The translations under genes were made by a program, and so were the position numbers. From Verrucomicrobiota bacterium (GTDB lineage Bacteria > Verrucomicrobiota > Verrucomicrobiia > Opitutales > Opitutaceae): 64,000 nucleotides of DNA. Of this stretch, positions 10,248 through 25,023 are shown piece by piece. The notes below the pieces were generated by a model. That model was not told where the DNA came from, ran no database searches, and was given only the letters and a program-made list of their open reading frames with translations. The stretch lies in the NCBI GenBank assembly GCA_003641745.1, contig QNAI01000001.1, positions 1 through 64,000 of the forward strand. Reading direction: 5' to 3'. Positions within the stretch are counted from its first letter, which is position 1. Every line of letters starts with the position of its first letter.

Positions 10248-10727
10248 ATGGCCAAAGTTGATGTCGACGTCGTCGCGACCATCCTGAACGACAGCAGTGT
10301 CGATCCCGAGGTGGTCGAACAGATACTGCGCAAGATCCAGCAGGAGCTGAAGCTTCAGGAGGAAATGGCGGAAGCCACCCGTGAGCCCCGGGTCAAGAAC
10401 CAGTACGTGGTTCTGCTGTCCGACCCCCTCAACCAGGTGGAAGTCGAAGACCTGGTCGGCTGGGTGGTTCAGATCCCCGAGATGGAGAGCCCGGCCACCA
10501 TCACCGACCGCATCATCCGTGCGACCCACGAATTCAATACCAGTCCGAAAGGTCGGAAGTTCCCGGCCAAGAGCATTGGCGAAGCCTGCGAAGTGGTCGG
10601 ACCAAAGTTCCTCAAACCGGAGCATCTTTCAATCAAGACCAAGCTTCCGGTTTCGGTGATCAAGACGGACAACCGCATGCCGGAGGACAAAGGCGACAAG
10701 ATCAGCCTCTCGGATCTGAAGGGTTGA
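10248..10727 (+). CDS. Hypothetical protein (159 aa)
   Basis: Unrecognised cytoplasmic-looking protein, rich in charged residues, with no signal or membrane segment. Residues 1-45 are predicted helical and charged (DVVATILNDSSVDPEVVEQI). A compact domain follows (VKNQYVVLLSDPLNQVEVEDLVGWVVQIPEM) and the C-terminus is Lys/Asp-rich and flexible. Codon usage looks like the neighbours and the frame is long and clean. It converges on the YdbL-like gene with 43 bp between stops. Confidence 0.65.
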   Translation: MAKVDVDVVATILNDSSVDPEVVEQILRKIQQELKLQEEMAEATREPRVKNQYVVLLSDPLNQVEVEDLVGWVVQIPEMESPATITDRIIRATHEFNTSPKGRKFPAKSIGEACEVVGPKFLKPEHLSIKTKLPVSVIKTDNRMPEDKGDKISLSDLKG

Positions 10728-10770: not shown

Positions 10771-11145
10771 CTACTTCCGGTACCAATTACCGTCCCCCCC
10801 CTGCAGCCATACCCCTTTGGCTGACCGGTTTCGGATCTGCTCGGCCCGGCCTTCACCCACGACGCCGATGCTCAGTCCGCTACGCGACGCGATGATACCG
10901 TAAAGGGCTCGCCGATCGGCGTTCTCATCCGCCATGGCCCTGCCTTGCGCCGCATCGAGGCGATCGCGTTGTTCAAGGAATCCCCGGCTGTTCTCTCCGA
11001 CCAATTCGGAGATCTTGAGCGCATCAACAACGGGGACCCGCTCGATCATTCGGGCCTGAATTTCAGCCTCGGTCTCGGCCCGCAGACCGGATACGGAAAA
11101 AAGCACCAAAAAGAGTGCGAGGAGATTAGGTAGGCTTTTTTTCAT
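10771..11145 (-). CDS. ydbL: YdbL-like periplasmic protein (DUF1318)
   Basis: 124 aa; signal peptide (KKSLPNLLALFLVLFSVSGLRA), then the DUF1318/YdbL pattern: AEIQARMIERVPVVDALKIS, a central helix, and GLSIGVVGEGRAEQIRNRSAKG with a C-terminal GNWYRK. In E. coli YdbL is the chaperone-like partner of the YdbH-YnbE intermembrane bridge. It follows the ynbE-like gene by 13 bp, the same gene order (ydbH-ynbE-ydbL) as E. coli. Start ATG 11145 is chosen for the signal peptide; the frame is open to 11220. Confidence 0.85.
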   Translation of the reverse strand: MKKSLPNLLALFLVLFSVSGLRAETEAEIQARMIERVPVVDALKISELVGENSRGFLEQRDRLDAAQGRAMADENADRRALYGIIASRSGLSIGVVGEGRAEQIRNRSAKGVWLQGGDGNWYRK

Positions 11146-11158
11146 GGCTGTAAATCGA

Positions 11159-11371
11159 TCACCCTTCTGATTCCCCGGTCTTCGGCATGATGGTATCCGA
11201 CGCGGCATCGATGGCACCAAATGCGTCCGTAAGCTCCCGCTCGAGTTGCACCTTCAGATTGACGTCGAGGGTCATATAGATCGGATCAACCGTGCTGTGA
11301 GTCTTTACGGACAGGCAACCGGAGAGAACGCACAGCGGCAAGAGACCGGCGAAGGCGAATCGAGTTTTCAT
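11159..11371 (-). CDS. ynbE: YnbE-like outer-membrane lipoprotein
   Basis: 70 aa lipoprotein. Lipobox LSGC places the lipidated cysteine at residue 19. The short mature part contains the YnbE block DPIYMTLDVNLKVQLEREL. E. coli YnbE is the outer-membrane anchor that extends YdbH into a continuous beta bridge for phospholipid transport. It lies between the ydbH-like and ydbL-like genes, which strengthens the call despite its size. Confidence 0.87.
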   Translation of the reverse strand: MKTRFAFAGLLPLCVLSGCLSVKTHSTVDPIYMTLDVNLKVQLERELTDAFGAIDAASDTIMPKTGESEG

Positions 11372-11419
11372 TCAGGATACCAGGCAGAGGCCCGTGGGGT
11401 TGGTTTCATGCATACAGTA

Positions 11420-11439
11420 TGACCGCCTTACGGTGGTCA
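11420..11439. other. Small hairpin between ydbH- and ynbE-like genes
   Basis: TGACCGCC and GGTGGTCA pair around a TTAC loop (8 bp, one G-U) in the 95-bp spacer between the ydbH-like stop and the ynbE-like start. No T-tract follows. It could be an RNA-processing or attenuation point inside the operon, or chance. Confidence 0.35.
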
Positions 11440-11466
11440 ATGTTCCAGACATCGGCTCCCATGGGA

Positions 11467-14331
11467 TCACAATGAAGACAGCCGGAACAGAAAATTCAGT
11501 GCCTCCTCCACCGTTCCGTTTATATTGGCGGTGATGAAATAGGGAATCTCAGTCTCCTCGGCCCTTGCTTTTCCGGCCAGATGCATCCTGACGGGACTGG
11601 AGGGGAAATCGGGATCAAATAGATCGACCGTGAATGCATCCACCTTAATATTACCCAAACCATTCTCCACCAACTGAAGGGGAAACAGGCGGAGTCGGTC
11701 CTTCAGCGACCTCGCCTCCTCGCCGCGAGTGAGGAGGCCCTCCGCCCGGTAGCGGAAAAAAGCCGGAATCCCCGGGGTCAATTCCAACCGACCCTGCCGC
11801 GGAATGAAACGGCCGTTCCGTATCCTGAAGGGAACCGCGCCGTCGATTGAACCCTCGAATGATCCTTCAAAGAAATCCAATTGTTCGAACAGGATCCCCA
11901 CGTCCAGACCGGTCACGTGGAGCTGTAGATCAGCGGTTCTATCCACGATCGAATATGAAAACGGGTCCAGCCGAACCTGCCCGTCAAACACCTCGAATGC
12001 CAGATCAACAAAATCCAATCGATCCGTACCGTCGAAGCCAAAGACCATCCGGCCATTTTCCATGACCAGATCAGACGCGGTCAAACGCCGGAACCCCCAG
12101 GTCGCCTCAGGCTCTACGTGCAGATCTCGCAGGGATGCAATTTCGAGCGAACCTTCAATTCCTTCCACTTGGAGGTTCTTGGGGGGGAAGGTGAGCGATC
12201 CGTCGCTGACGGAAAGACCAATGGAAAGGTCCCAGGGTTGAGTGAGCGACCACCAGGCTTCGGCACTCAGGGAAAGAACAGCACCGATGGACAGGCCTGC
12301 CGCCCCGGAGAAATGACGGGAAACCAGATCCGAATGCCTGATCTCGAACGGTTCGAATTCGACCCTTCCACACACTTTGACCGGGTGCCCGTCGTCACCG
12401 AAGAACAGGCGATCCTCGAACCGACCGGTCAAAAGAGAGCCGTCGAAAAGGGCCTTCAGGTGCCCACCGGATCGAATTCCCCTTTCAGTAAAGGTCACAT
12501 CCTGAACGATCTCGATCGTGTGCAGGGATTCTCCCCCCACTCGCAGATTGGCCGCAGAAACGGATACCTGGAGATCGGAGTCGCCTCGCCCTCGCCTCCA
12601 CTCCGGCCCCTGAATATGGTTGATTTCGAACCACTCGAGAACGATCTCTCCTGGAAGAGACAACCGGTCCCCGATCAATTCCATTTTCAGGTCGAGCCCG
12701 GAGACAAAATCGAACAGTTCGAGCGGGCTCAATCCCGACAACTGTGACAACCCGACGATCGGGGTCGGCGGGACGGAAAGGTCGAGGGTAACACTGGCGA
12801 TTTCCGCATCAACCCGATCCATCCCGATCTTGAGTGCTTCGAGTTCCAAGCCGATCTCAGCCGCGATCCGATCATCGTCGCCCATTTCCACCGTCAGGTC
12901 GAATCCGCCCGACGTATCGAAGGAGCCAAACCTGTCGAGCTTCAGAGCCACTCGCCCCCCGGAGGGTTCGACCCGGACACTCCCCCTGACAAGGTGGGAA
13001 CCCAGATTCGACACCTCGCCTGAAACCGAAAGAGTGGAACCCGGCTCGCTCGCCAGGTCGATGGAAGCATCCCAGTCGAGCCTGTCCGGGCTTCCTCCAA
13101 TCAGGAGCAGGTTTACTTCAAGGTTCGAAAGGACCGGCCAATCCGCCTCAAGGGATTCAAGGCGCCGTACATGAAACCGGGCCAGGCCCGGCTCGATCTC
13201 GAGATCAAAATCGACGGGTTTCCATTCGCGATCAACCGTGGTGAGGCGGGCGATAGAACCCTCCATGACCGTGCCGACCGGCAATCGCCCTGCTTCCGGC
13301 CAGGGGATTGTCGCCCCGAACTCAATCGCGCCCGAAACCTGCCCCGTCTCAACAACGGCATGCTCGGAGGAAACGACAATCGATTCCCCACTTATTCCGA
13401 CAATCCGACCCAGCGGAACAGACATTTCAAACCGTCCGTCATCCAGGTGCAACCCGCCCGAAACCGCTTCGAATCGCGCTCCCTCGCCAGGCGTCCATCC
13501 GACCACCAGGTCCAGAAAGTCCAGCCAAACGATGTGATCCCGATAACAACCTTCCAAGCCGGTCACACCGAGCTCTGCCTGAAATGCGATCGGGTGCAAC
13601 CGCGAGAGATCGAGATGGGAAAAAAACGCGACCGATGAGGCGTCGATATCGAATGGGCCATCGACAGGCAGGAAATCCCGCCACGAGGGGACAGTCTGAC
13701 CCACCCAATGAGCGAATCCCGCACCCCTGACCTGGCCTGCAATCTCGACCACCAGGCCCTTCTGGTCGCCGTGCAATGCAATCTCTGCGGACAGGTCGCC
13801 ACAAGCGGCCTCCAGTGACACCGCCAATTGGTGCGCCGAGGACACACTTCCTTCTCCGCTCAGGTTCAACTCTATCCGGCGGCCCATGAAAATCAGTTCC
13901 GCCTGGATTCTGTTTACGGAGAAATCCATCTCGGGCAGAGCCGACTGAATGGTCCCCATTAGATCGGCGAGTTCGTCGACCGATCGTTTCGAAGGTGTTT
14001 CCAGTATCTGATCGACATCGACGAACAGACGACCCTCTCCGGTCTCAATTTCATGGATGCTCAACGACCATGCATCATGAGTTGACCGAAGTTCATCCAA
14101 CTCAAAGCGCCAGCCCTCCCCGGCCAGGACAATACCCGAGATGGTCAGGGATTTCGGCGTGATCGAACCGATCGACGCCCGGGCCTCAGCCAGTCCGGTG
14201 TCTCCAAAAATTCGCTCCAGCGCAGATTGAGCCAGCCGAACCCGAACCAGATACACGGAGGTCAAGAGGCCGACAACAACGAGAAAAACCAGAGAACCAG
14301 ACAGCAAAAGGGTTCTGAAAATCTTCCTCAC
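11467..14331 (-). CDS. ydbH: YdbH-like AsmA-family intermembrane bridge protein
   Basis: 954 aa envelope protein with one N-terminal membrane anchor (residues about 7-29, LLLSGSLVFLVVVGLLTSVYLV), followed by a very long strand-rich region without further membrane segments. This is the architecture of AsmA-like bridges (YdbH, TamB, YhdP), which form a lipid-lined groove across the periplasm. The C-terminal part, with GSFEGSIDGAVPFRIRNG and ending in NINGTVEEALNFLFRLSSL, is YdbH-like. The ynbE- and ydbL-like genes follow. Upstream, only 32 bp separate it from the alpha-oxoamine synthase gene, so it appears to share the lipid-synthesis transcript. Confidence 0.85.
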   Translation of the reverse strand: MRKIFRTLLLSGSLVFLVVVGLLTSVYLVRVRLAQSALERIFGDTGLAEARASIGSITPKSLTISGIVLAGEGWRFELDELRSTHDAWSLSIHEIETGEGRLFVDVDQILETPSKRSVDELADLMGTIQSALPEMDFSVNRIQAELIFMGRRIELNLSGEGSVSSAHQLAVSLEAACGDLSAEIALHGDQKGLVVEIAGQVRGAGFAHWVGQTVPSWRDFLPVDGPFDIDASSVAFFSHLDLSRLHPIAFQAELGVTGLEGCYRDHIVWLDFLDLVVGWTPGEGARFEAVSGGLHLDDGRFEMSVPLGRIVGISGESIVVSSEHAVVETGQVSGAIEFGATIPWPEAGRLPVGTVMEGSIARLTTVDREWKPVDFDLEIEPGLARFHVRRLESLEADWPVLSNLEVNLLLIGGSPDRLDWDASIDLASEPGSTLSVSGEVSNLGSHLVRGSVRVEPSGGRVALKLDRFGSFDTSGGFDLTVEMGDDDRIAAEIGLELEALKIGMDRVDAEIASVTLDLSVPPTPIVGLSQLSGLSPLELFDFVSGLDLKMELIGDRLSLPGEIVLEWFEINHIQGPEWRRGRGDSDLQVSVSAANLRVGGESLHTIEIVQDVTFTERGIRSGGHLKALFDGSLLTGRFEDRLFFGDDGHPVKVCGRVEFEPFEIRHSDLVSRHFSGAAGLSIGAVLSLSAEAWWSLTQPWDLSIGLSVSDGSLTFPPKNLQVEGIEGSLEIASLRDLHVEPEATWGFRRLTASDLVMENGRMVFGFDGTDRLDFVDLAFEVFDGQVRLDPFSYSIVDRTADLQLHVTGLDVGILFEQLDFFEGSFEGSIDGAVPFRIRNGRFIPRQGRLELTPGIPAFFRYRAEGLLTRGEEARSLKDRLRLFPLQLVENGLGNIKVDAFTVDLFDPDFPSSPVRMHLAGKARAEETEIPYFITANINGTVEEALNFLFRLSSL

Positions 14332-14363
14332 GGGTTCTCCAAGCCGGTTGCCGGTTCAAAGCA

Positions 14364-15560
14364 TCAGATTTTCCTCACGGCATTCTGGAACGCTGCCTCA
14401 ATACGTTCGAAGTCCTCATCCGTGTGCGCGGCCGAAATGGCGGTTCTGATCAAATCTTTCCCGGGTGGGACACCTGGGGCGATTGACATGACGGTAAAGA
14501 CCCCCTCCTCCATCAATGCCTTCCAGAACATGTAAGCCCGTTCCCGCGATCCGAGGACCACCGGAAGGGCCGGTGTTTCGCTTCCCCAGGTATCCAGATT
14601 CAAATCCTCGAGCAGCGTCCGGTACCTGCGTGTGTTGGTCCAGAGGCGTTCGAGATGCTCCGGTTCATCCTGCATGATGTCCAGCGCGGCCTGGGCACAA
14701 GCCGCCTGAACCGGGCTGATCGCCGCGCTGAAAATCGTCTGTTTGGAGTGCGTGCGCAGATACTCGATCGTATCGGTGCTGCCGGCAACAAATCCGCCGG
14801 TACTGGAAAGAGACTTCGAAAGGCTGCCGCAGATGATATCAATCTGATCACCAACTCCAAAATGGTCGGCCGTCCCCCGACCCTGATGACCGAGAACGCC
14901 GAGACCATGGGCATCATCAAGCACCACGAAACAGCCATGACCCTCGGCTGCTTCCAGAAAATCCGGGAGCGGCGCGATGTGTCCCTCCATCGAGTACACG
15001 CCCTCGATGACGAGAAGCTTCGCTGCTTCGGCATCGGTGAAGCGGAGCACTTCCCGAAGATCGGTCGGGCTGTTATGGCTGAACCGCTCCATCGTGGCAT
15101 AAGACAGCCGAATTCCGTCCCAAATGCAGGAATGTATATTCTTGTCCACCAGGACGACATCGCCGCGGGTCGCAAAACCTGCCACAGCTGAGAGGCAGGA
15201 GAGGTATCCGGCCGAAGTCACATGGCAGGCTTCCTTGCCAAGAAAAGCAGCCAACGCTTCCTCAAGCTCCCGATGATAACGACGGGACCCGTTTGACAAC
15301 CGTGCTCCGGTCGTGCTGCTGCCCCAGATGCGCAACGCCTTCTCCGCCGCTTCCATCACTTTCGGATGCGTGGTCAGACCAAGATAATCATTGCTCGAAA
15401 GCATGATGAGCTCACGACCACCAAGCATGACCCGGGTACCTCGCTGAGAGTCCATCTCGTGGTACCACGGCTCGTATTTCCGCCGCAATATCGAGGGCTG
15501 GTCGGTCCGACAGCGCTCGGCGATGACGCTGCGTGTTTTGTTGCTGAAAAGTGGTTTCAT
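14364..15560 (-). CDS. Alpha-oxoamine synthase (serine palmitoyltransferase / BioF-like)
   Basis: PLP enzyme that condenses an amino acid with an acyl thioester and loses CO2. 398 aa. Family marks: NDYLGLTTHPKV, GSSTTGARLSNGSRRYHRELE, VDKNIHS (His stacking on PLP), DDAHGLGVLGHQGRG, and SLSKSLSSTGGF with the PLP lysine. BioF, 2-amino-3-ketobutyrate ligase and serine palmitoyltransferase share these motifs. No other biotin gene is nearby. The context (acyl carrier, ketoacyl synthase, SDR, glycosyltransferases, lipid bridge) favours making a sphingoid-like lipid backbone; this is inference. Confidence 0.85.
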   Translation of the reverse strand: MKPLFSNKTRSVIAERCRTDQPSILRRKYEPWYHEMDSQRGTRVMLGGRELIMLSSNDYLGLTTHPKVMEAAEKALRIWGSSTTGARLSNGSRRYHRELEEALAAFLGKEACHVTSAGYLSCLSAVAGFATRGDVVLVDKNIHSCIWDGIRLSYATMERFSHNSPTDLREVLRFTDAEAAKLLVIEGVYSMEGHIAPLPDFLEAAEGHGCFVVLDDAHGLGVLGHQGRGTADHFGVGDQIDIICGSLSKSLSSTGGFVAGSTDTIEYLRTHSKQTIFSAAISPVQAACAQAALDIMQDEPEHLERLWTNTRRYRTLLEDLNLDTWGSETPALPVVLGSRERAYMFWKALMEEGVFTVMSIAPGVPPGKDLIRTAISAAHTDEDFERIEAAFQNAVRKI

Positions 15561-15601
15561 CGATGGTGAAGGTCAGACCGAACCGCAAAAAGAAGGTTCT
15601 T

Positions 15602-16474
15602 TCAATCCGAAGTCAACGAGTTGGCGATCATCATGCCAAGCGCCCGGACAAAAAGGCGCGGATTGATCCGCCACCAGTAGCGCGCGTAGCGATGAAGGTA
15701 TTCGGTTGGCCATTCACGCCGACCCCAGACGGCCGCCGTGGCCGCCCGACGGGAGGCAAAAAGGAGGGAATTCGCCTCGTTGTGATCGTGCCGTCCCGGA
15801 GACTGGCTGACATGGTGAAGGATGACACTGCGGTGGGAAACCAGAATCTGATACCCGGCCTCACACAGCCGCACACAAAGGTCGATATCCTCAAAACCAT
15901 TGCGGTAAGCCTCGTCGAATCCCGAAAACTGACGGAAGACCTCGGTTCGCATCAACAGGCAGGCGGCGGAGGCCGCATGCCATTCGCGAAAGGCACCCCG
16001 AGGCGGATATCGACGGTTCTTGCGGGCGTGGGTCGGCATGCCCTCCGGATCGAAGAAGACACCCGCATGATCCAATAATCCGGTCCGTGGGTTCACCTGG
16101 ACATTCCCAACCGCGCCAACCCGTTCTTCCCGATCCAGCAATTCAATCATCGGCTCAAGCCATCCCGGAGTCAGCACGGTATCGTTGTTGAGCAGAAGGA
16201 GTCGCTCGGCGCGGACTTCGGCCACCCCGCAGTTGATCGATTTCGCGTACCCCTCATTGGCTTCCTGGCGAATCACCCTGAAGGGGGCACCCAGTGATTT
16301 CAGATAAGTCGAGGTCTCCTTGTCGCTGGCGTCATCGACGACCACGACTTCGACAGTCCCATCGACAGTCCGAAGCAGGCTATCGAAACAGGCCTCGGTC
16401 AATTCCCTGCAATTGTGCACCGGAACGACGATGGACAAGGCGAGCCCATTCCTTGTCTTCAGATCCTGATGCAT
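15602..16474 (-). CDS. Glycosyltransferase family 2
   Basis: 290 aa cytoplasmic GT-A enzyme. LSIVVPVHNCRELTEACFDS is the nucleotide-binding start, VEVVVVDDASD the first acidic motif and LLLLNNDTVL the metal-binding DxD-like motif. NGFEDIDLCVRLCEAGY is the GT2 acceptor-side motif of rhamnosyl- and O-antigen-type transferases. It sits 41 bp before the alpha-oxoamine synthase in the same transcription unit. Donor and acceptor cannot be read from sequence. Confidence 0.88.
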   Translation of the reverse strand: MHQDLKTRNGLALSIVVPVHNCRELTEACFDSLLRTVDGTVEVVVVDDASDKETSTYLKSLGAPFRVIRQEANEGYAKSINCGVAEVRAERLLLLNNDTVLTPGWLEPMIELLDREERVGAVGNVQVNPRTGLLDHAGVFFDPEGMPTHARKNRRYPPRGAFREWHAASAACLLMRTEVFRQFSGFDEAYRNGFEDIDLCVRLCEAGYQILVSHRSVILHHVSQSPGRHDHNEANSLLFASRRAATAAVWGRREWPTEYLHRYARYWWRINPRLFVRALGMMIANSLTSD

Positions 16475-16533
16475 CCGATTATCGAACGACAGGCCACTGT
16501 CGCCTGCGAGTCAGAAATCGACGACCCATCGAA

Positions 16534-17604
16534 TCACTGTTCGGAAACCAGGACCCGGATCACCTGATCCGCCGTCAGCGTCCAGGTCGGCAACGTCCGG
16601 TCTGCTGCTTCCGAGGCCAGACGGTTGATCAGGTCGTTCCCTTCGAGCAGAATGCGAAGTTCGCGCACCCAGGCGGCATCACCATGAGGATCCACCAAGC
16701 GACACCCACCGCCCTCCGCCGATTCACGATGAGACGGCAGGTCGCTGCAAACGCACGGCGTCCCCATCCAGAGTGCTTCAAGAACCGGCAGTCCGCAACC
16801 TTCGGCCCGCGACGGAAAGATGGAGAAACGGCAGGAACGAATGAGTTCGGCCATTTCCTTATCATCCACCGGTCCCCGGTGGTCAATCGGCCGCCCCATC
16901 CGTCGCATTCGACGGATCTCCGAGACCAATGGCTTTCCAAAATGCGGATTGACGCGCCCGACCAGGTTCAAGCCGAATTGGCAACCCTCCTTCCAAAGTC
17001 GCTCACACGCCCGGAGCAGTCGTACCTGATTCTTCCGAGGTTCAAGGATTCCAACCATCAGAATGGTCGCCAATTCACTCCGATCCACACAACCGATCGG
17101 ACGTTCACCCCCCAGGAAGTCGGCCCCAAGCTGAATCGGACTGATCGAAGCCCTGCAATCTCCGCCCAACCAATCAACGTAACCGGCGAACTCCTCACAG
17201 CTTGATTCAGATACGCCAAAAACATGATCGAAACCCGAGAGCATCTTCATGTAGGACGGGTATCGTGCGACGCTTTGCGGCCAGGTGAACTCCGGGTATC
17301 GCAGCGGAATCGCGTCGTGGAAAACGGCTCCAAAGCGGCAGTCCCCCCGTTCGAGAAAGGCTTGAAAGCCACTCCTCTCGGTGGGAGCAAATGCTTCGAC
17401 CGTCAGGAACCAATCCTCACAAGTAGGCATCACCGTCCGGCGCCGGGTGACATCGAACAAGGCCCGACGTCGGTTATTCCAAACGACGCGGACGAATGAC
17501 TCCCCGAGCAAAGATTCAAGCGATTCGCTCAGACGCCGGGCGGTACGTGTGATACCGGAGGCATGATTCTGCCTCGAAGTCTTGGTAACATCAAAAAAGA
17601 CCAT
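16534..17604 (-). CDS. Glycosyltransferase family 4 (group 1)
   Basis: About 356 aa GT-B enzyme. The C-terminal donor domain shows ILMVGILEPRKNQVRLLRACE, HRGPVDDKEMAELIRSC and the EX7E motif in SRAEGCGLPVLEALWMG. The N-terminal domain is divergent (MVFFDVTKTSRQNHASGITR), as in mannosyltransferases of surface-polysaccharide loci. ATG 17604 is preferred; it overlaps the upstream glycosyltransferase by 14 bp, so the two are translationally coupled. ATG 17634 is an alternative. Confidence 0.87.
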   Translation of the reverse strand: MVFFDVTKTSRQNHASGITRTARRLSESLESLLGESFVRVVWNNRRRALFDVTRRRTVMPTCEDWFLTVEAFAPTERSGFQAFLERGDCRFGAVFHDAIPLRYPEFTWPQSVARYPSYMKMLSGFDHVFGVSESSCEEFAGYVDWLGGDCRASISPIQLGADFLGGERPIGCVDRSELATILMVGILEPRKNQVRLLRACERLWKEGCQFGLNLVGRVNPHFGKPLVSEIRRMRRMGRPIDHRGPVDDKEMAELIRSCRFSIFPSRAEGCGLPVLEALWMGTPCVCSDLPSHRESAEGGGCRLVDPHGDAAWVRELRILLEGNDLINRLASEAADRTLPTWTLTADQVIRVLVSEQ

Positions 17605-18829
17605 TCGACCTGTCACCCCGTGATTCCAGACCACTCAAATGCTCGAACCAGACCTTCATGTTCCTGTCGGCATTAAAGTATCGCTCCACCCAGGTCCGGG
17701 CTTCGAACCGAATCCGGTCCGCCGTCTCCGGGCGATCGAGTACGGTGCGGATGGCAGCGTTCCAGGATGAGGCATCCTCAAGAGGACAAAGGAAGCCCGT
17801 CTTTCCGTCAACCACTGCCTCCGACACCCCTCCACCCGGTGCGGCCAGAACGACTGTTCCCACCGCCATGGCCTCCCCCACAACATTGGGTAGACCATCG
17901 CGATCGCCGCTCCGCGCCACCTGGCCTGTGTGAAGAAGAAAGTCGGCCCTCCGTATTTCATCGATCACCCGGTCGACCGGCAGCCACCCGGTCACATCGA
18001 TCCGGTCGGACAAGTCGAGTTCGACAACCGCCCGTTGAATGGCACCACGCAAGGGTCCGTCACCGATAATTCGCGCGCTGAACGAAAGGTCCGCAGCCCG
18101 CAGGGCGGCGAAGATCTCGATCTGGCGCAGGAACCCCTTCTTCTCCACCAGGCGACCGACCCCGACAAATCGTATATGCGCGTCTGAAACCGCCCGCGTC
18201 CCACAGGCGGGCATGGGCAGAAGTCCACGACGAATCAATACGGTCCGCGCCGGATCCCCACCGATTTCCTTCAGGCGCTCAAGACCGGCAATGGTCGAGG
18301 TTCGAATCCGATCCGCAGCCTGGCATTTCTCGCGCAGAAACCAGTCTCCACCGTGTTCAAACAGGTCATAGGCATGCGCTTCGAAGGTAAACGGTATCCC
18401 ACACAATCGAGAGATCAGCCAAGCCCCCATGGCGGGAAGGCTTCCCCAGACTCCGTGTACCAGGTCGGGGCGATTTTTCCGAAAGTGAGGGGCCTCGACG
18501 ATGCCAAAGCCCATTCCCAGGAGGTTTTCACCCAGGTTGAGGAGTGACGGGTGCAGACCTCGCCCAAGGAGCAGGTGGAGCAGGTCGAAAAAGACCCGGG
18601 GACGTTTCAGCCATTCAGTCGGCAACCGGTAGACCAGACGCCAAAGCCTCCATTTCGAGAATCGCCTGATGGGCAGGTCCGAAAACGAATCCCCGCCACC
18701 GTGCAACGAATGGATCTCAACTTCGACTCCCTGATTGAGGATGGCCAATAATTCGCGCTGTACGAAAGTCTCCGATCTGACCGGAAAGGTCGTATAAAAA
18801 ATCGCGATGCGCCTGGGAGGAGAGACCAT
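17591..18829 (-). CDS. Glycosyltransferase family 4, WcaL/AmsK-like
   Basis: 412 aa GT-B enzyme. The N-terminus IAIFYTTFPVRSETFVQREL matches the SETF(I/V)xxE signature of colanic-acid/amylovoran-type transferases. The donor-binding half has FVGVGRLVEKKGFLRQIEIF and DGLPNVVGEAMAVGTVVLAAPGG. The acceptor may be lipid-linked. Its 3' end overlaps the next glycosyltransferase gene; upstream, a 124-bp spacer separates it from the MGDG-synthase-type gene. Confidence 0.88.
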   Translation of the reverse strand: MVSPPRRIAIFYTTFPVRSETFVQRELLAILNQGVEVEIHSLHGGGDSFSDLPIRRFSKWRLWRLVYRLPTEWLKRPRVFFDLLHLLLGRGLHPSLLNLGENLLGMGFGIVEAPHFRKNRPDLVHGVWGSLPAMGAWLISRLCGIPFTFEAHAYDLFEHGGDWFLREKCQAADRIRTSTIAGLERLKEIGGDPARTVLIRRGLLPMPACGTRAVSDAHIRFVGVGRLVEKKGFLRQIEIFAALRAADLSFSARIIGDGPLRGAIQRAVVELDLSDRIDVTGWLPVDRVIDEIRRADFLLHTGQVARSGDRDGLPNVVGEAMAVGTVVLAAPGGGVSEAVVDGKTGFLCPLEDASSWNAAIRTVLDRPETADRIRFEARTWVERYFNADRNMKVWFEHLSGLESRGDRSNGLF

Positions 18830-18953
18830 GAGCTTCAGGTCTATGGCTTGGAGGACAACCCTGCGAGGATCAACCTCGGATCCCGGAAAGGGTGGGAACC
18901 GGTTCAGAAAAGACCCTGGAACTCATGGGCACATTGATTTGCACCGAGCGGGC

Positions 18954-20144
18954 TCAGGGCGAATCCTCCACGACCTTGGTAGTCGCCGCCTCCCGGGCGA
19001 GTTCCACCAGTTCCTTGATCACGAGTGTCGGGTCCTCGTCATACCTGAGGTTGCAGAACCGCTCTTTCAGGGTCCGGAAGTCCGACGGATGATCGGACCA
19101 GCGCTTGAGCAGGCGCTCGAGGTCTCCCGGCCTGGATATCACTTCAGAAGCCTCATCCTGGGTGAAAAACTTCACGGTCAGCCGTTCCTGGGGCATGATT
19201 CCATTGAACCCATTCAGGATGATCGGGCACCGGTAGTGCATGGCCTTGGCACAAGTCGTCGTACCGCCCCGAGTGATGATAACATCGCTGGCCTGGACGA
19301 GGAGGTGCATCTGCTGGCAGTAGCCTTCAACATGGCATAGGAGTTCAGGATGGCTCTTTCTCCACTCATTGACCCGGAGGAAAGCCCGGTGGTTGCGCCC
19401 ACAGACGACAATAACCTGAAACTTACCCGCAAACTTCGCCACGATCGGCAGGAGATCAAGATGGTTGTTGGCACCGGTTCCGCCGGTTGCGAGAAAGACA
19501 GTAAACCGGGCCGGGTCCAAGCCGAGGGTTTCCCGCTGGAATTCCTGACGGTCCTTCATGATGAACGCCTCCTCGTAGACCCGAGGCTCCATCAGGTGCC
19601 CGCGCACCCGGATCTTTTCCGGAGCCAGGCCCAACTTGGTCGCATAATCACGAGCAGTCTCAGTTCTGGAAATGTAAAGATCTACCGACGGTTCGATCCA
19701 ATTGGTGCTGTATCCATAACCGCCGGAAAACTCGCTGCAGTAGGTCGCGCAGCGTACCCGTGACGGGCCGAGCACTCGACGCGCGGTCTGGAAATAACCA
19801 CGATTGAGGCAATCATGAACGCTGAATACCAGGTGTGGCTTATAGTTCTCCAAAACCTGGGTATAGTAACGGTTGCCGAGAATGACCCCGCTTCGGTTCA
19901 TGAACCGCAATCCCTCGATCAGCAGGTAATACGGATGATGGAGCCAGGGCGCATGCTTCTGAATGAAGTTGTAGAAATGGACCCCAAAGCGATTGAGGAT
20001 CGATGAATCCTCCAACATGCTCTCGATCCTCACCTCGACCGACCAGCCGTAGAGGCGCTTGACCCATTTCGAGAAAGCAACCGCCCGGGCGTCATGCCCA
20101 CCGCCGGTGCTCGAGGTCAATACCAGTATCCGAAGGTTGGACAC
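18954..20144 (-). CDS. MGDG-synthase/UgtP-type glycolipid glycosyltransferase
   Basis: 396 aa. The N-terminus RILVLTSSTGGGHDARAVAF is the glycine-rich acceptor loop of the MGDG_synth/UgtP family (GT28). The C-terminal half has the UDP-sugar motif SDVIITRGGTTTCAKAMHYRCPIILN. These enzymes transfer galactose or glucose to a membrane lipid such as diacylglycerol. In this operon the acceptor could be the product of the alpha-oxoamine pathway. It starts with GTG at 20144, exactly adjoining the TGA of the SDR gene, so translation is coupled. Confidence 0.87.
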   Translation of the reverse strand: MSNLRILVLTSSTGGGHDARAVAFSKWVKRLYGWSVEVRIESMLEDSSILNRFGVHFYNFIQKHAPWLHHPYYLLIEGLRFMNRSGVILGNRYYTQVLENYKPHLVFSVHDCLNRGYFQTARRVLGPSRVRCATYCSEFSGGYGYSTNWIEPSVDLYISRTETARDYATKLGLAPEKIRVRGHLMEPRVYEEAFIMKDRQEFQRETLGLDPARFTVFLATGGTGANNHLDLLPIVAKFAGKFQVIVVCGRNHRAFLRVNEWRKSHPELLCHVEGYCQQMHLLVQASDVIITRGGTTTCAKAMHYRCPIILNGFNGIMPQERLTVKFFTQDEASEVISRPGDLERLLKRWSDHPSDFRTLKERFCNLRYDEDPTLVIKELVELAREAATTKVVEDSP

Positions 20145-20966
20145 TCAGCGAATCCCGAAGTAGCGCCGGGACACCGCCCGAAGCCAGTTCTCAGGCACCA
20201 GGCGAGAGAACAGTGGAGCCAGTCCGGCCTGAAATAATGAACCCGTCCGGACAACTGCATGCCGTTTGCGGCGGAGCGCACGCACCAGGTCGTGAGCCGC
20301 TCGAACAGGATCGGGTGCCGCATTCATGATGGAATCCAATCGTTTCCCCACCCGGGTGATCTGGTTTGTGCGGTCTGGTTTGAATTCACTGATGCCCATG
20401 GTCCGATTAAACGATGTCCGGAAGTCGCCCGGTCTGAAATCCACGATGTATGGTCCCGTCTCCGCAGACTCAATCATTAATCCACGGGCGAATCCCGACA
20501 GGCCTCCCTTGACCGCATTATACCCGCTCATAAAGGGCAGCGGGAACTCGCAGGCCAGAGAAGACAGTATTACGACCGCGGACGGAGTGTGAGCCTGAAG
20601 GTGAGGCATGGCCAGGTGTACCAGGCGCGCGGTACCAATGAGCATCCCCTCAATCTGACTCGCCCACGAATCAAAGCTGGAGTCGGTAAATCCGCCAAAT
20701 ACGCCGTACCCGGCATTGCCGACCACGATGTCAACACCAGGACCTTCGGTCAGCACCCGCTCCCAGAGTCGATCAATGGTCCGGGCATCGGCCAGATCGA
20801 GCACGGCTGGGATAAACCGGTCCCGATCCTGCAGTCGGTCCGGGCTCCGTGAAGTACCCCAGACGGTCAGGCCTTCGGCAATCAGGGCATCGGCAAAGGC
20901 TCGTCCGAGGCCTGAGCTTGCACCCGTCACCAATGCTGAGCGGTAGCCTTGATCGACGAGAGACAC
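20145..20966 (-). CDS. Short-chain dehydrogenase/reductase
   Basis: About 273 aa classical SDR. NAD(P)-binding motif TGASSGLGRAFAD, NAG motif VGNAGYG, catalytic Ser in VVILSSLA and YNAVK as the YxxxK pair. GTG 20966 is chosen because it leaves the usual short N-terminus; the frame is open to 20999, and a TATACT hexamer lies between the two. Probable 3-keto reductase; in this locus it could reduce a 3-keto sphingoid base or a 3-ketoacyl-ACP. The next gene adjoins its stop directly. Confidence 0.85.
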   Translation of the reverse strand: MSLVDQGYRSALVTGASSGLGRAFADALIAEGLTVWGTSRSPDRLQDRDRFIPAVLDLADARTIDRLWERVLTEGPGVDIVVGNAGYGVFGGFTDSSFDSWASQIEGMLIGTARLVHLAMPHLQAHTPSAVVILSSLACEFPLPFMSGYNAVKGGLSGFARGLMIESAETGPYIVDFRPGDFRTSFNRTMGISEFKPDRTNQITRVGKRLDSIMNAAPDPVRAAHDLVRALRRKRHAVVRTGSLFQAGLAPLFSRLVPENWLRAVSRRYFGIR

Positions 20967-21004
20967 GGTCCTAGTATAGTCCGCCAAACAGATTGGCACT
21001 TAGG

Positions 21005-21101
21005 GACGTGGCGTTTTTTCGGAGTTCAAGGCGCGAGGAAGGAGCGAATCCGTAGATTCGTGACTGACGAGCAACGCTGAAGTCGGGAAAAAGACCATGT
21101 C
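21005..21101. repeat. 97-bp imperfect palindrome
   Basis: Outer arms GACGTGGCG plus a T-run (21005-21020) and an A-run plus GACCATGTC (21088-21101) are inverted copies. A perfect inner palindrome GAATC-CGTA-GATTC lies at 21046-21059. Both share the same centre (about 21053). It looks like a REP/MITE-like intergenic element in the 276-bp spacer between the ketoacyl synthase stop and the SDR start. No other copy was found in this window. Confidence 0.55.
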
Positions 21102-21242
21102 TGTTCATTTATCCTATTTCCTTCCACTTTTTGACTCCATCTGTCTCATAATTGCCCTTCCCATAAGTTACAATATGTGCGGCGGCCTGCACTAGTATCT
21201 GATGACGAACGTCCGATTGACGAGTGAAGAATCCGCCCGTCT

Positions 21243-22508
21243 TCAATTCTTCTTCAGGACGATGACCACATTTGACCCGCCAAACCCGCTGCTGTTGCAG
21301 AGGGCGTAATCGGGGGACGTGCCGATCGTCTCCCGCAGGATGGCCACGCCCTCGCACTCGGGGTCGAGGTTCCTGATATGGGCGGATCCCGGCGTGAACC
21401 CGCGCCGCATGCCCAAGGCGACGAATCCCGCTTCCAGAACGCTGGAGAGGGAAAGTCCGTGCCCGGTCAAGGCTTTGGTGCTGCTGACCAGTGGACGGTC
21501 GTGATCGACCCCAAAGACGGATTTGATCGCCCGCACCTCGCTGATATCCCCAATCGAGGTCGAGGTCGCGTGGGCGTTGATATGGTTGATATCGCCCACT
21601 TGAAGGGAAGCGTCATTAATGGCAAGGCGCATGGCGTCCCGCAACCCGATCCCATCAGGGTGCGACATGGCCACGTTATGCCCGTCCGATGCCTGGCCCC
21701 AACCGGCCAACTCGGCGTAAGGAGCCACGCCTCGCCGTTCAACCTCATCTTCGGATTCCAGGACCATGACGCACGCGCCGCCGGTGCCGACAAACCCGGA
21801 TCGATCAACATCGAAGGGCTGGGAAGCCTGGGTCGGATCGGTCTTGAGAGAAAGGGCGCGCATACCCGCAAACGGGAGTATGCTGTAACGGTTACAATCT
21901 TCTGCTCCGACCACGAACACCCTCTTCTGCCGACCGGAACGAATATCCTCCATCGCGTAGCCGATTCCGTGTCCGGAAGAAGCACAGGCCGAGGAAAATC
22001 CACAGGAAACCCCACGAATCTGAAATGCCGCCACGAGGTTGAAATTCAATGTCCCGGCAATCGAAGCAACAATGCCTGTCGGCGAGCAGCGCATGACTCC
22101 AAGGCGGTCCATCCGATCGAAGTTCTGTCTCATCAGAAAAGGGGAACCCGCTGAAGCCGCATAGAGGCCCGTGAGCCCGTTGGATATATCCGGCTGATCC
22201 AGACCGGCATCCTCGATCGCCTGCAGCATCGAGCAATAGGCATAAACCCCATGTGGAGCCAGGCCACGAAGCACCTCCCGTTTGATGCGGTAGCGCTCGG
22301 GATAGGTCCAGTCCTCGAAATCGATCGAGTCCACCTCGAATCCCTTAATCGTCCCCAAGACCTTCACCGGGGAGTCGGGCTTGTCAAAGGGAGGATACTG
22401 CTCGATACCGTGTCGCAGATGGATCAGGCTGTCAGCAACGGCATCTCCATCGTTGCCGATGCTGGAGACGAAACCCATTCCAGTGATGAATACTCTCTGT
22501 TGGGACAT
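21243..22508 (-). CDS. Beta-ketoacyl-[ACP] synthase family protein (FabF-like)
   Basis: 421 aa thiolase-fold condensing enzyme. Catalytic triad of the KAS II type: Cys in SSACASSGHGIG, His in NAHATSTSIGD and His in TGHGLSLSS, plus the C-terminal CNSSGFGGSN. It elongates an acyl chain on ACP. It is distant from housekeeping FabF in details, and it sits behind the ACP-dehydratase fusion and before the SDR. This suggests a dedicated chain-building set like those of aryl-polyene or specialised lipid loci. Confidence 0.88.
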   Translation of the reverse strand: MSQQRVFITGMGFVSSIGNDGDAVADSLIHLRHGIEQYPPFDKPDSPVKVLGTIKGFEVDSIDFEDWTYPERYRIKREVLRGLAPHGVYAYCSMLQAIEDAGLDQPDISNGLTGLYAASAGSPFLMRQNFDRMDRLGVMRCSPTGIVASIAGTLNFNLVAAFQIRGVSCGFSSACASSGHGIGYAMEDIRSGRQKRVFVVGAEDCNRYSILPFAGMRALSLKTDPTQASQPFDVDRSGFVGTGGACVMVLESEDEVERRGVAPYAELAGWGQASDGHNVAMSHPDGIGLRDAMRLAINDASLQVGDINHINAHATSTSIGDISEVRAIKSVFGVDHDRPLVSSTKALTGHGLSLSSVLEAGFVALGMRRGFTPGSAHIRNLDPECEGVAILRETIGTSPDYALCNSSGFGGSNVVIVLKKN

Positions 22509-22583
22509 AGCGTAGGTGGAAACCCAAGCCCTGCAGCAGAATCAAGGGTCCGGCAAGCGTTCAAATACCAAAAGAGCGCCAAA

Positions 22584-22600
22584 CCACTGAACAACAGTGG
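22584..22600 (-). terminator. Weak intrinsic-terminator-like hairpin
   Basis: CCACTG and CAGTGG pair around a 5-nt loop. Read on the minus strand, the hairpin is followed by TTT and, after GGCGC, TCTTTT. It lies in the 197-bp spacer after the ACP-dehydratase gene and could partly terminate transcription before the ketoacyl synthase gene. If strong, it would split the proposed operon. Confidence 0.35.
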
Positions 22601-22705
22601 CATTACAGACGATTCAAGGCAAGCAATGAGACGAGACCGGAGGTCAGGTCAACAAAGGCACAATTGGAACCCCTCAAGGGACCGCACATTCATCGCCGAA
22701 GCGAA

Positions 22706-23698
22706 TCAAGTCCGGTCAATCTTGGCCTCAGCTGCAGCAGGAGTTCCGTTTCGATCGTGGCCGAAATCGTTCTTTGAGTCGACCTCACCCGTTCTTGCAG
22801 GAGGTTCCGACTTCTTGTCCTCCTTTTCAGACTCCACTTCCAAGGCTGCGTAGTCGAAGGTCAGGGTGATTTCCTCGGCATAAGCCGCTTTCTCCTGACC
22901 GACCCGAATCGAGCCCTCAAATGTCGCGAGCGGATGGCGCAGGCGCTTGGGTTTGATCGACAGCTTCAGGACATCGCCCGGCCGGCAAACCCGATGACAA
23001 CGCACGCCTTCACACCCGGTAAAATAAATCGATCCGGCATCGAGCGGTCGTTTGAGTTGGGCGCTCTTGCCGTGCAGAAGAAAAAGAACGGCGAGTTGTC
23101 CGAGCGCTTCCAGAAGAATGGACGCCGGGAAAACCGGGTTTCCCGGAAAATGACCGGAAAGGATATGTTCGTCGCCGGCGATGCGGTATTTGCCTGAAAC
23201 CCAACCGGACGTGAGGGTGGCCTCCTGGAGAAAGAGAAAAGGTGGCTGTTGCGGCATCACCTCGACCAGGTCCTCAATCGAAAGGTACCTTGAGGGTTCC
23301 GGTGGGGGCAATCCTTTGACCTTGTGGTCGATGAAAACCCGGATGTCTCCGACGGTTCTGAGATTTCTCAACTCGTCGTTGGCAATAGAGACATTGAGCA
23401 CCTCTTCAACCAGGATGACGACCTCCATCATGGTCAGCGAATCGAGACCCAGATCCTCGATCACGCGAAGATCCTCATCTGCCTCCCTCAATCGTGAGTG
23501 ATGCTCGGGCTCGACAAAACGCTCGATAATGCCCAGGACAATCGCCGACAAGTGGCTGGCATCGGTTGTTTTGCGAAATTCCAGAGCCGCTTGAAGGGTC
23601 TCCGGAGAGCAACGCTTTAAAGATTCCCGCAAAGACGCCTCGTCGCCACCCGGGGTGGCGGCAGCCGCGCTTGACAGATTCTCGTTTGCAGAAGCCAT
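22706..23698 (-). CDS. Acyl carrier protein fused to FabA/FabZ-like 3-hydroxyacyl dehydratase
   Basis: About 330 aa in two domains. Roughly residues 45-135 form an ACP with the phosphopantetheine site LGLDSLTMMEVV. Residues about 145-290 form a hot-dog dehydratase with the catalytic motif GHFPGNPVFPASILLEALGQ (His and Glu present). The last 40 residues are charged and flexible. Start ATG 23698 (MASANENL); the frame is open upstream to 23860 without a better start. It would carry and dehydrate a growing acyl chain for the KAS that follows. It is divergent from the glycosyltransferase gene at 23866. Confidence 0.85.
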   Translation of the reverse strand: MASANENLSSAAAATPGGDEASLRESLKRCSPETLQAALEFRKTTDASHLSAIVLGIIERFVEPEHHSRLREADEDLRVIEDLGLDSLTMMEVVILVEEVLNVSIANDELRNLRTVGDIRVFIDHKVKGLPPPEPSRYLSIEDLVEVMPQQPPFLFLQEATLTSGWVSGKYRIAGDEHILSGHFPGNPVFPASILLEALGQLAVLFLLHGKSAQLKRPLDAGSIYFTGCEGVRCHRVCRPGDVLKLSIKPKRLRHPLATFEGSIRVGQEKAAYAEEITLTFDYAALEVESEKEDKKSEPPARTGEVDSKNDFGHDRNGTPAAAEAKIDRT

Positions 23699-23865
23699 GT
23701 AGGAAGGTAGTAAGGTTCGGGTGTCAGAATTGTAAACGTTATTTTTCCAACGCAGGATCTGTGCGCAGACGGCGAAAAACAAGGAAGATAACCGCTTGAC
23801 GGTCTCTTTTAGCAGAATCATTGCTGAACAGGGATCGATTTGCGTCTTCCCACGCGTCATTCGCC

Positions 23866-25023
23866 ATGATCGCGATTTCCAAAAAATCTTCAGTATTTGT
23901 CATCACTCACGAATTCTTCCCGATGCGGGGCGGTATCGCCACCTACGTCGAGGAGATGGCTCGCGCCTCGGTCGATTTGGGCTATGAGGTCGAGGTTTGG
24001 GCACCGCATTCCCCTCAAGCCGATGACCGGCATTTTCCCTTTCGGGTGCTCCGAATTCCGCTGAGAGGCACGCAGGACCTCTCCTGCCAGATCAGAATGG
24101 CCCGACAGATGATTCGCGAGCGGCGGCGCCTGCGTAAAGGAATTGTTTATCTTCCGGAGCCGGGTCCGGTCCTGGCCATGACCTACCTGCACTATTTCAA
24201 GGCATTCAAGCCTGCCAGGATGATCATCACTTTCCACGGAACCGAGATTCTCCGTTTCGCCTCCCGACCAGCCGCTCGCCTGCTGGTCCGACAACTCATC
24301 AAAAGGGCGGATCTCGTCACGACCTCATCACGCTTTGCCCATCAACTCCTGAAGAACCATTTTCCGGTTGCGAACTGCAAGACCCGACTGACCCCGTGTG
24401 CCCTTCGGACGGACTTTCGCGCTACGGCCTCAACCCGGAAGTCGGTTTCCGACAAGGTCATCATTCTGACAGTCGGTCGATTGCATCCCAGGAAGGGGCA
24501 GATCCACATTCTGGAAGCGCTCGAGCATCTGCCGGAAGGTCTGCACGATCGTGTCGAATACTGGATCATCGGCCGGGGGGCGAAAGGCAACTACGAAGCC
24601 CGCCTCCGCGAAATGGCAGATCGGTCCCGGGTTGCGGTGACTTTTCTCGGGGTGATCGACAACGATGATCTCGAAACGTTCTACCAGCGGGCCGATATTT
24701 TCGCCATGACCAGCATCAACCACGAGAAAAGCGTCGAGGGTTTCGGCCAGGTTTACCTGGAAGCCTCCGCCTTCGGTCTTCCTGTGGTGGCCCACGATGT
24801 CGGCGGCGTATCCGAAGCGGTCTGCAACGGAAAAACCGGGATTCTGGTGGAACCGCACGACCGCGACGGACTGACTGAGGCGTTTGCACAGCTTATCGGC
24901 AATCCGGACCTCCGACGCTCACTCGGAGAGAATGGGCGTATCTGGGCCCACGACCGCTCGTGGAGTGACTCGGCCCGACTGCTCTATGAACCGGTCGACG
25001 GCCGGGCGATGGAGATTGATTAG
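23866..25023 (+). CDS. Glycosyltransferase family 4
   Basis: About 385 aa GT-B enzyme. N-terminus FVITHEFFPMRGGIATYVEEMARA is the glycine-rich acceptor-side loop. The donor half has ILTVGRLHPRKGQIHILEALEHL, FLGVIDNDDLETFYQRADIFAM and the motif EGFGQVYLEASAFGLPVVAHD. ATG 23866 is preferred over the upstream TTG at 23821. It is divergently oriented from the ACP-dehydratase gene with a shared 167-bp control region, and probably belongs to the same surface-lipid locus. Confidence 0.9.
   Translation: MIAISKKSSVFVITHEFFPMRGGIATYVEEMARASVDLGYEVEVWAPHSPQADDRHFPFRVLRIPLRGTQDLSCQIRMARQMIRERRRLRKGIVYLPEPGPVLAMTYLHYFKAFKPARMIITFHGTEILRFASRPAARLLVRQLIKRADLVTTSSRFAHQLLKNHFPVANCKTRLTPCALRTDFRATASTRKSVSDKVIILTVGRLHPRKGQIHILEALEHLPEGLHDRVEYWIIGRGAKGNYEARLREMADRSRVAVTFLGVIDNDDLETFYQRADIFAMTSINHEKSVEGFGQVYLEASAFGLPVVAHDVGGVSEAVCNGKTGILVEPHDRDGLTEAFAQLIGNPDLRRSLGENGRIWAHDRSWSDSARLLYEPVDGRAMEID

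Follow-up and report, generated by a model that had tools for sequence, protein, structure and literature searches.

Which lipids are carried by the AsmA-type bridges of the bacterial envelope, and whether any such bridge is specific for one cargo, are the questions raised by an array of eleven genes from a Verrucomicrobiota bacterium. The array lies on the minus strand at 10771-23698 of a stretch of 64,000 nucleotides, referred to here as the window (contig QNAI01000001.1, positions 1 to 64,000). The source is a draft genome, 83% complete, and its nearest named relatives are Opitutia/Puniceicoccaceae metagenome-assembled genomes (MAGs). The array consists of two parts, a lipid block that runs from an acyl carrier protein (ACP)-dehydratase through an alpha-oxoamine synthase (AOS) and a ydbH-ynbE-ydbL cassette. 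YdbH-YnbE-YdbL of E. coli is presumed to be a bridge that carries lipids from the inner to the outer membrane (PMC8593681; Kumar et al. 2024 as cited in PMC12977461). We favor, tentatively and with slightly less than even confidence, the view that the locus joins an old glycosylated AOS-lipid cluster of the Opitutia order to a standard YdbH-YnbE-YdbL bridge, the two being functionally associated and not exclusive to each other.

The eleven open reading frames (ORFs) are all open, all on the minus strand and all of the kinds named in the initial annotation. From upstream to downstream, they encode an ACP-FabZ fusion, a beta-ketoacyl-ACP synthase (KAS), a short-chain dehydrogenase (SDR), a monogalactosyldiacylglycerol (MGDG)/UgtP-type GT28 glycosyltransferase (GT), GT4a, GT4b, a GT2, the AOS, YdbH, YnbE, and YdbL. 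The intergenic gaps along this order are 197, 243, 0, 124, -14, 59, 41, 32, 95, and 13 bp. The reported spacing of 32 bp between the AOS gene and ydbH is therefore confirmed, and so is the description of genes that overlap or adjoin, since SDR and the MGDG-type gene meet at 0 bp, and GT4a and GT4b overlap by 14 bp. Only 13 bp separate ynbE from ydbL. No terminator-like site was seen in the AOS-ydbH gap (a weak test), and a co-transcript of the array is plausible.

The cassette itself can be recognized gene by gene. The YdbH-like AsmA-superfamily protein (11467..14331, minus strand) is full length, with 954 residues in one frame, and matches PF11739 at 70.9 bits against a cut-off of 26.3 (1.4e-19). 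Its N-terminus has a mean Kyte-Doolittle hydropathy of 2.45 across 19 residues, as in a transmembrane anchor of the inner membrane. A PDB sequence search with a YdbH profile found no solved relative, and an AlphaFold2 model built from an alignment with two relatives gave only strand-rich secondary structure (pLDDT 35.7, pTM 0.30). Beside ydbH, the YnbE-like outer-membrane lipoprotein (11159..11371, minus strand; 70 residues) was aligned with nine homologues in the ynbE position, with which it has in common a conserved core and the lipobox LSGC, including its invariant G-C (Cys19). The adjoining gene (10771..11145, minus strand) encodes a YdbL-like (DUF1318) periplasmic protein that matches PF07027 at 59 bits against a cut-off of 27 (6.1e-16; alignment A4); its ORF begins at a TTG, and the homologues favor an ATG at 11145. 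The E. coli system has the same three-gene order, with a PF11739 rod bearing an N-terminal anchor, a small lipoprotein, and a DUF1318 protein (Ruiz et al. 2021, PMC8593681). Unlike its E. coli counterpart, the window YnbE has diverged so far that no Pfam model matches it. To our knowledge, no lipid-synthesis operon is attached to the E. coli ydbH-ynbE-ydbL locus.

Other genera also have AOS linked to ydbH, which means that the linkage is not the accident of one genome. Among the 57 AOS loci with flanks in the tree set (some on short contigs), ydbH is found in the AOS flank in four, one in each of four genera from three lineages, and always beside the GT2-AOS pair. The arrangement is co-directional in the window and in the genome G032, and divergent in G035 and G061. 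The initial annotation looked to synteny in relatives, and this holds in G032, G035, and G061 and fails in most others. The window and G032 (locus L086) share the one-direction order SDR-MGDG-GT4a-GT4b-GT2-AOS-ydbH-ynbE-ydbL, and downstream of ydbL both carry a convergent gene for 156-159 residues and a Nudix gene. In the window, this convergent gene (10248-10727, plus strand) encodes a 159-residue protein without a Pfam match, and its counterpart in G032 (L086:10454-10924) encodes 156 residues. Despite the same order, the G032 YdbH is only 32% identical to that of the window over the BLAST match. We rejected the idea that relatives conserve all eleven genes as a unit, since the same order is seen only in G032, whose contig begins inside the block at SDR.

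In the other two genera, the layout is different. The G035 locus (L090) has a complete ydbH-ynbE-ydbL cassette divergent from GT2-AOS. Directly upstream of its ydbH (L090:7232-10501, minus strand) are pieces of an epimerase gene, apparently in two frames, a DegT aminotransferase gene, and an ArnC/GtrB-like GT2 gene, a set that resembles the Arn-type genes for lipid-linked aminosugars. In G061 (L095), ydbH stands alone and directly divergent from GT2-AOS; ynbE-ydbL is on another contig (L116) with no ydbH nearby, and the MGDG gene is on a third (C88). Judging from gene order, inverting only the GT2-AOS pair would convert the divergent layout into that of the window. Two other seemingly recurrent neighbors were discarded: ABC transporter genes near several ydbH loci encode assorted, different ATPases and were judged to be there by chance, and an ABC-2 permease in the AOS loci was a clustering artefact, as only two loci carry it.

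The age of the linkage can be approached through the AOS tree, which was rooted with other families. Five basal AOS lineages, whose branching order the tree does not fix, consist of G061; of G035, G029, and G013; of the window, G032, and G089; of the g20/g68/g13 group; and of the bulk of the family. Linked members occur in three of the five, requiring at least three changes by parsimony. The proposal that the linked loci form one well-supported clade was rejected, as they fall on three branches, though a single clade is compatible with the approximately unbiased test (p-AU 0.386). The linkage may be old, with several later losses, or it may have had more than one origin. The three linked lineages share almost no genes beyond AOS, GT2, and ydbH (with ynbE-ydbL in two of them). 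Since other neighbors are not shared, chance alone is an unlikely reason for the proximity; the probability that one random placement in 4 Mb falls within 5 kb is about 0.0025. Such probabilities were not multiplied because common descent makes the observations non-independent. The linkage is older than one strain, yet facultative.

The form of the bridge follows a related pattern. Full-length YdbH (about 950-1090 residues) is found mainly in genera whose AOS has a GT2 neighbor, and within the family it occurs in these GT2-type genera and in g11. In most of the family, the YdbH frame has about 400-600 residues, with a match limited to the C-terminal part of the profile, and the length of such a protein may not suffice to cross the periplasm. 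These short genes (L096, L097, L100, L105, L106, and L107) still adjoin ynbE and ydbL, and several have an N-terminus that is signal-peptide-like, not anchor-like. Their distribution fits a loss of linkage alongside a change in the bridge, but this is confounded with ancestry. In alignment A3, the YnbE proteins of GT2-type genera have two extra core residues (NLKVQL..EL vs NVKV..), and the YnbE subtype of the linked loci is also present in the unlinked L099 and L103.

The two parts of the array are far more widespread than their linkage. AOS matches were found in 188 of 200 family genomes, the best at 62-72% identity, and elsewhere in the order many families have matches at 56-66%. In most genera, the usual block is ACP-dehydratase-KAS-SDR-MGDG-GT4a-GT4b, toward which AOS and a second GT run convergently, and of 20 AOS loci from other families about half have a version of the block. 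GT2 is the AOS neighbor in nine genera, the basal ones. Given the age and wide spread of the block, the window stands out for the way GT2-AOS is oriented and for the cassette attached to it, and not for the block itself. The order-wide AOS/ACP-dehydratase/KAS/GT cluster was seen in L055-L095, L111-L126, and L131-L150; the literature searched contained no match to it, and its product appears to be a core lipid of Opitutia that has not been described. YdbL was detected in 179 and YdbH in 170 of 252 family genomes. In complete or near-complete genomes, the cassette is far from AOS, by tens of kb to Mb: at 514785 vs 2126201 in G172 and at 1030209 vs 2224355 in G020, and likewise far in G004 and G090. 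The closest unlinked case seen is G003, with about 36 kb between them. In other genera, the cassette adjoins housekeeping genes, for example those for glycogen phosphorylase and mutL.

The genes of the block bear on the nature of the lipid. The AOS (14364..15560, minus strand; Aminotran_1_2 5e-48) has a bacterial serine palmitoyltransferase (SPT), 3a2b, as its closest solved structure (1.6e-91). In the 3a2b alignment, it keeps the catalytic pyridoxal phosphate lysine, the stacking histidine, the Asp-x-His motif, and the substrate arginine, which are not SPT-specific because they are common to all AOS families. The ACP domain fused to a FabZ/FabA-like dehydratase (22706..23698, minus strand; PP-binding 1e-5, FabA 2.2e-14, FabZ 1.2e-18) has a DSL phosphopantetheine site and the catalytic motif GHFPGNPVFP..E; its ORF reaches 23860, and the start at 23698 is the better fit to homologues. 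The KAS (21243..22508, minus strand; ketoacyl-synt 8e-27 and 4e-26) is FabF/FabB-like with a Cys-His-His triad and matches the FabB/FabF NCBIfam models at about 1e-88, yet below cut-off. Together, these two genes suggest that the AOS has its own acyl chain. The SDR (20145..20999, minus strand; adh_short 4.6e-29) is a possible 3-keto reductase.

The glycosyltransferases of the block, of the MGDG type and others, suggest a glycolipid. The MGDG/UgtP-type enzyme (18954..20144, minus strand; PRK13609 5e-19) has chloroplast MGDG synthase 1 as its closest solved structure (4wyi, 1.9e-20). It is followed on the same strand by GT4a (17591..18829; Glycos_transf_1 7.6e-26), GT4b (16534..17604; Glycos_transf_1 1.7e-18; the ORF runs from 17634, and the start was set by homology to L086), and GT2 (15602..16474; Glycos_transf_2 1.7e-28). 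A further GT4 gene (23821..25023, plus strand; Glycos_transf_1 1.9e-40) is divergent from the array. A GT4 gene is recurrent at this edge of the block in relatives, and members of its family were seen in about 23 AOS loci. By sequence, the product is most likely a sphingoid-like glycolipid. Spt-like proteins have been reported in Verrucomicrobiota MAGs from the Black Sea (PMC11334938). Lipopolysaccharide is expected as well, since the window genome and its relatives encode LpxC; in G012, G019, G067, and G172 (g13, g20, and g68), the canonical gene is accompanied by another, divergent one that is LpxC-like (about 1e-26 to 1e-29). The window genome also encodes TamB, another bridge.

Several observations weigh against the view favored here. 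Linkage is missing or ydbH is absent in about 45 of 49 family genera, and no AOS-cassette linkage was found in the loci and contig positions of any other family checked. In G172 and G067, full-length YdbH and GT2-AOS are both encoded but lie Mb from each other. The widest gaps of the array, 243 bp between KAS and SDR and 197 bp between ACP-dehydratase and KAS, lie within the lipid block and leave room for separate promoters. The AOS falls below all curated NCBIfam SPT cut-offs (380 vs 640, 349 vs 500, and 276 vs 670 bits), and with a pLDDT of 36 the YdbH model is too poor to reveal a groove.

One could consider the juxtaposition neutral, a possible explanation that we regard as somewhat doubtful. 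A single chance event in the family ancestor would have put ydbH beside GT2-AOS, where descent kept it in slow-rearranging lineages; the co-directional array would come from a passive inversion of GT2-AOS, and the bridge would handle bulk phospholipid with no special tie to the cluster. Most lineages do lack the linkage, one gain followed by several losses would account for the tree changes, the tree test does not reject a single origin, and in other genera the cassette adjoins genes such as those for glycogen phosphorylase and mutL. However, the proximity persists though other neighbors are scrambled between window/G032, G035, and G061, and in G061 ydbH stays although the cassette and the block are both broken up. 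It is far less probable that the cluster makes a secreted or cytoplasmic-side glycoconjugate, not an outer-membrane lipid, with the bridge genes merely sharing a promoter: the AOS falls below the SPT cut-offs and also resembles several further families of oxoamine synthases closely, but ACP, KAS, dehydratase, and an MGDG-type GT are a lipid-type gene set.

At the other extreme, the initial annotation had the bridge dedicated to the lipid of the cluster, so that a specialized YdbH clade and the synthesis genes would form a self-contained synthesis-and-delivery unit for an AOS-derived glycolipid. The co-directional order kept in two genera, the lipid-linked-sugar genes in front of the G035 ydbH, and the availability of TamB to carry phospholipid could all be cited for it. 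The claim was not borne out. Nearly throughout the family and the order, the block is without a neighboring ydbH, in most genera the cassette occurs without an adjoining lipid block, and TamB provides the window genome with a second bridge. Such a unit is unlikely because the same AOS-GT2 pair lacks a detected ydbH in G013 and G012 or has it Mb away in G172 and G067, and the YnbE subtype is not restricted to linked loci. As most relatives keep the block and the cassette apart, the bridge is probably a helper, not a dedicated exporter.

The favored reading is therefore one of association, in which a standard bridge cassette would have become attached to a lipid cluster near the base of the family. 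From the gene content, order, and recurrent linkage observed, we infer the steps, the co-transcription, and the cargo that follow. The ACP-dehydratase, KAS, and SDR would make or alter a dedicated acyl chain on ACP, which the AOS would join to an amino acid to give a long-chain amino-ketone that the SDR may also reduce. The MGDG-type, GT4, and GT2 enzymes would then attach sugars at the inner membrane, yielding a glycosylated AOS-derived lipid, sphingoid-like or otherwise amino-acid-based. The co-expressed YdbH rod, anchored in the inner membrane, would provide lipids with a hydrophobic route across to the outer membrane, with YnbE as its outer-membrane cap and with help from YdbL. Co-directional placement would match bridge capacity to the supply of an outer-membrane-bound lipid.

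Parts of this arrangement have parallels elsewhere. The bacterial sphingolipid clusters of Caulobacter and Rhodobacteria (PMC9386255, PMC11324152) also combine an SPT-like alpha-oxoamine synthase with a specialized ACP and a candidate reductase, here the SDR. The window differs from them in the fusion of ACP to a dehydratase, the KAS, the four GTs, the attached bridge, and an AOS below the SPT cut-offs. The array contains no identified ceramide synthase or acyl-ACP synthetase, and the former was not searched for genome-wide. Lipid and pigment clusters with their own transporter, such as the mycobacterial lipooligosaccharide-MmpL12 locus (PMC12507525), likewise join synthesis genes to an envelope transporter for one lipid. 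Such clusters use RND/MMPL or LolA-like carriers, in contrast to the AsmA-superfamily bridge of the window array, and no such bridge within a lipid or pigment synthesis cluster was found in the literature searched. Aryl polyene clusters carry MMPL/LolA-like genes.

G061 offers a natural test case, as its bridge gene stays by the lipid cluster while its own partner genes have moved away. It is improbable, on present evidence, that the YdbH proteins encoded beside GT2-AOS form a clade adapted to bring a single glycosylated, alpha-oxoamine-derived lipid to the outer membrane. If it were, these bacteria would have a Gram-negative lipid cluster with its own AsmA-superfamily bridge, and that bridge would be the first AsmA-like one with a definable cargo.

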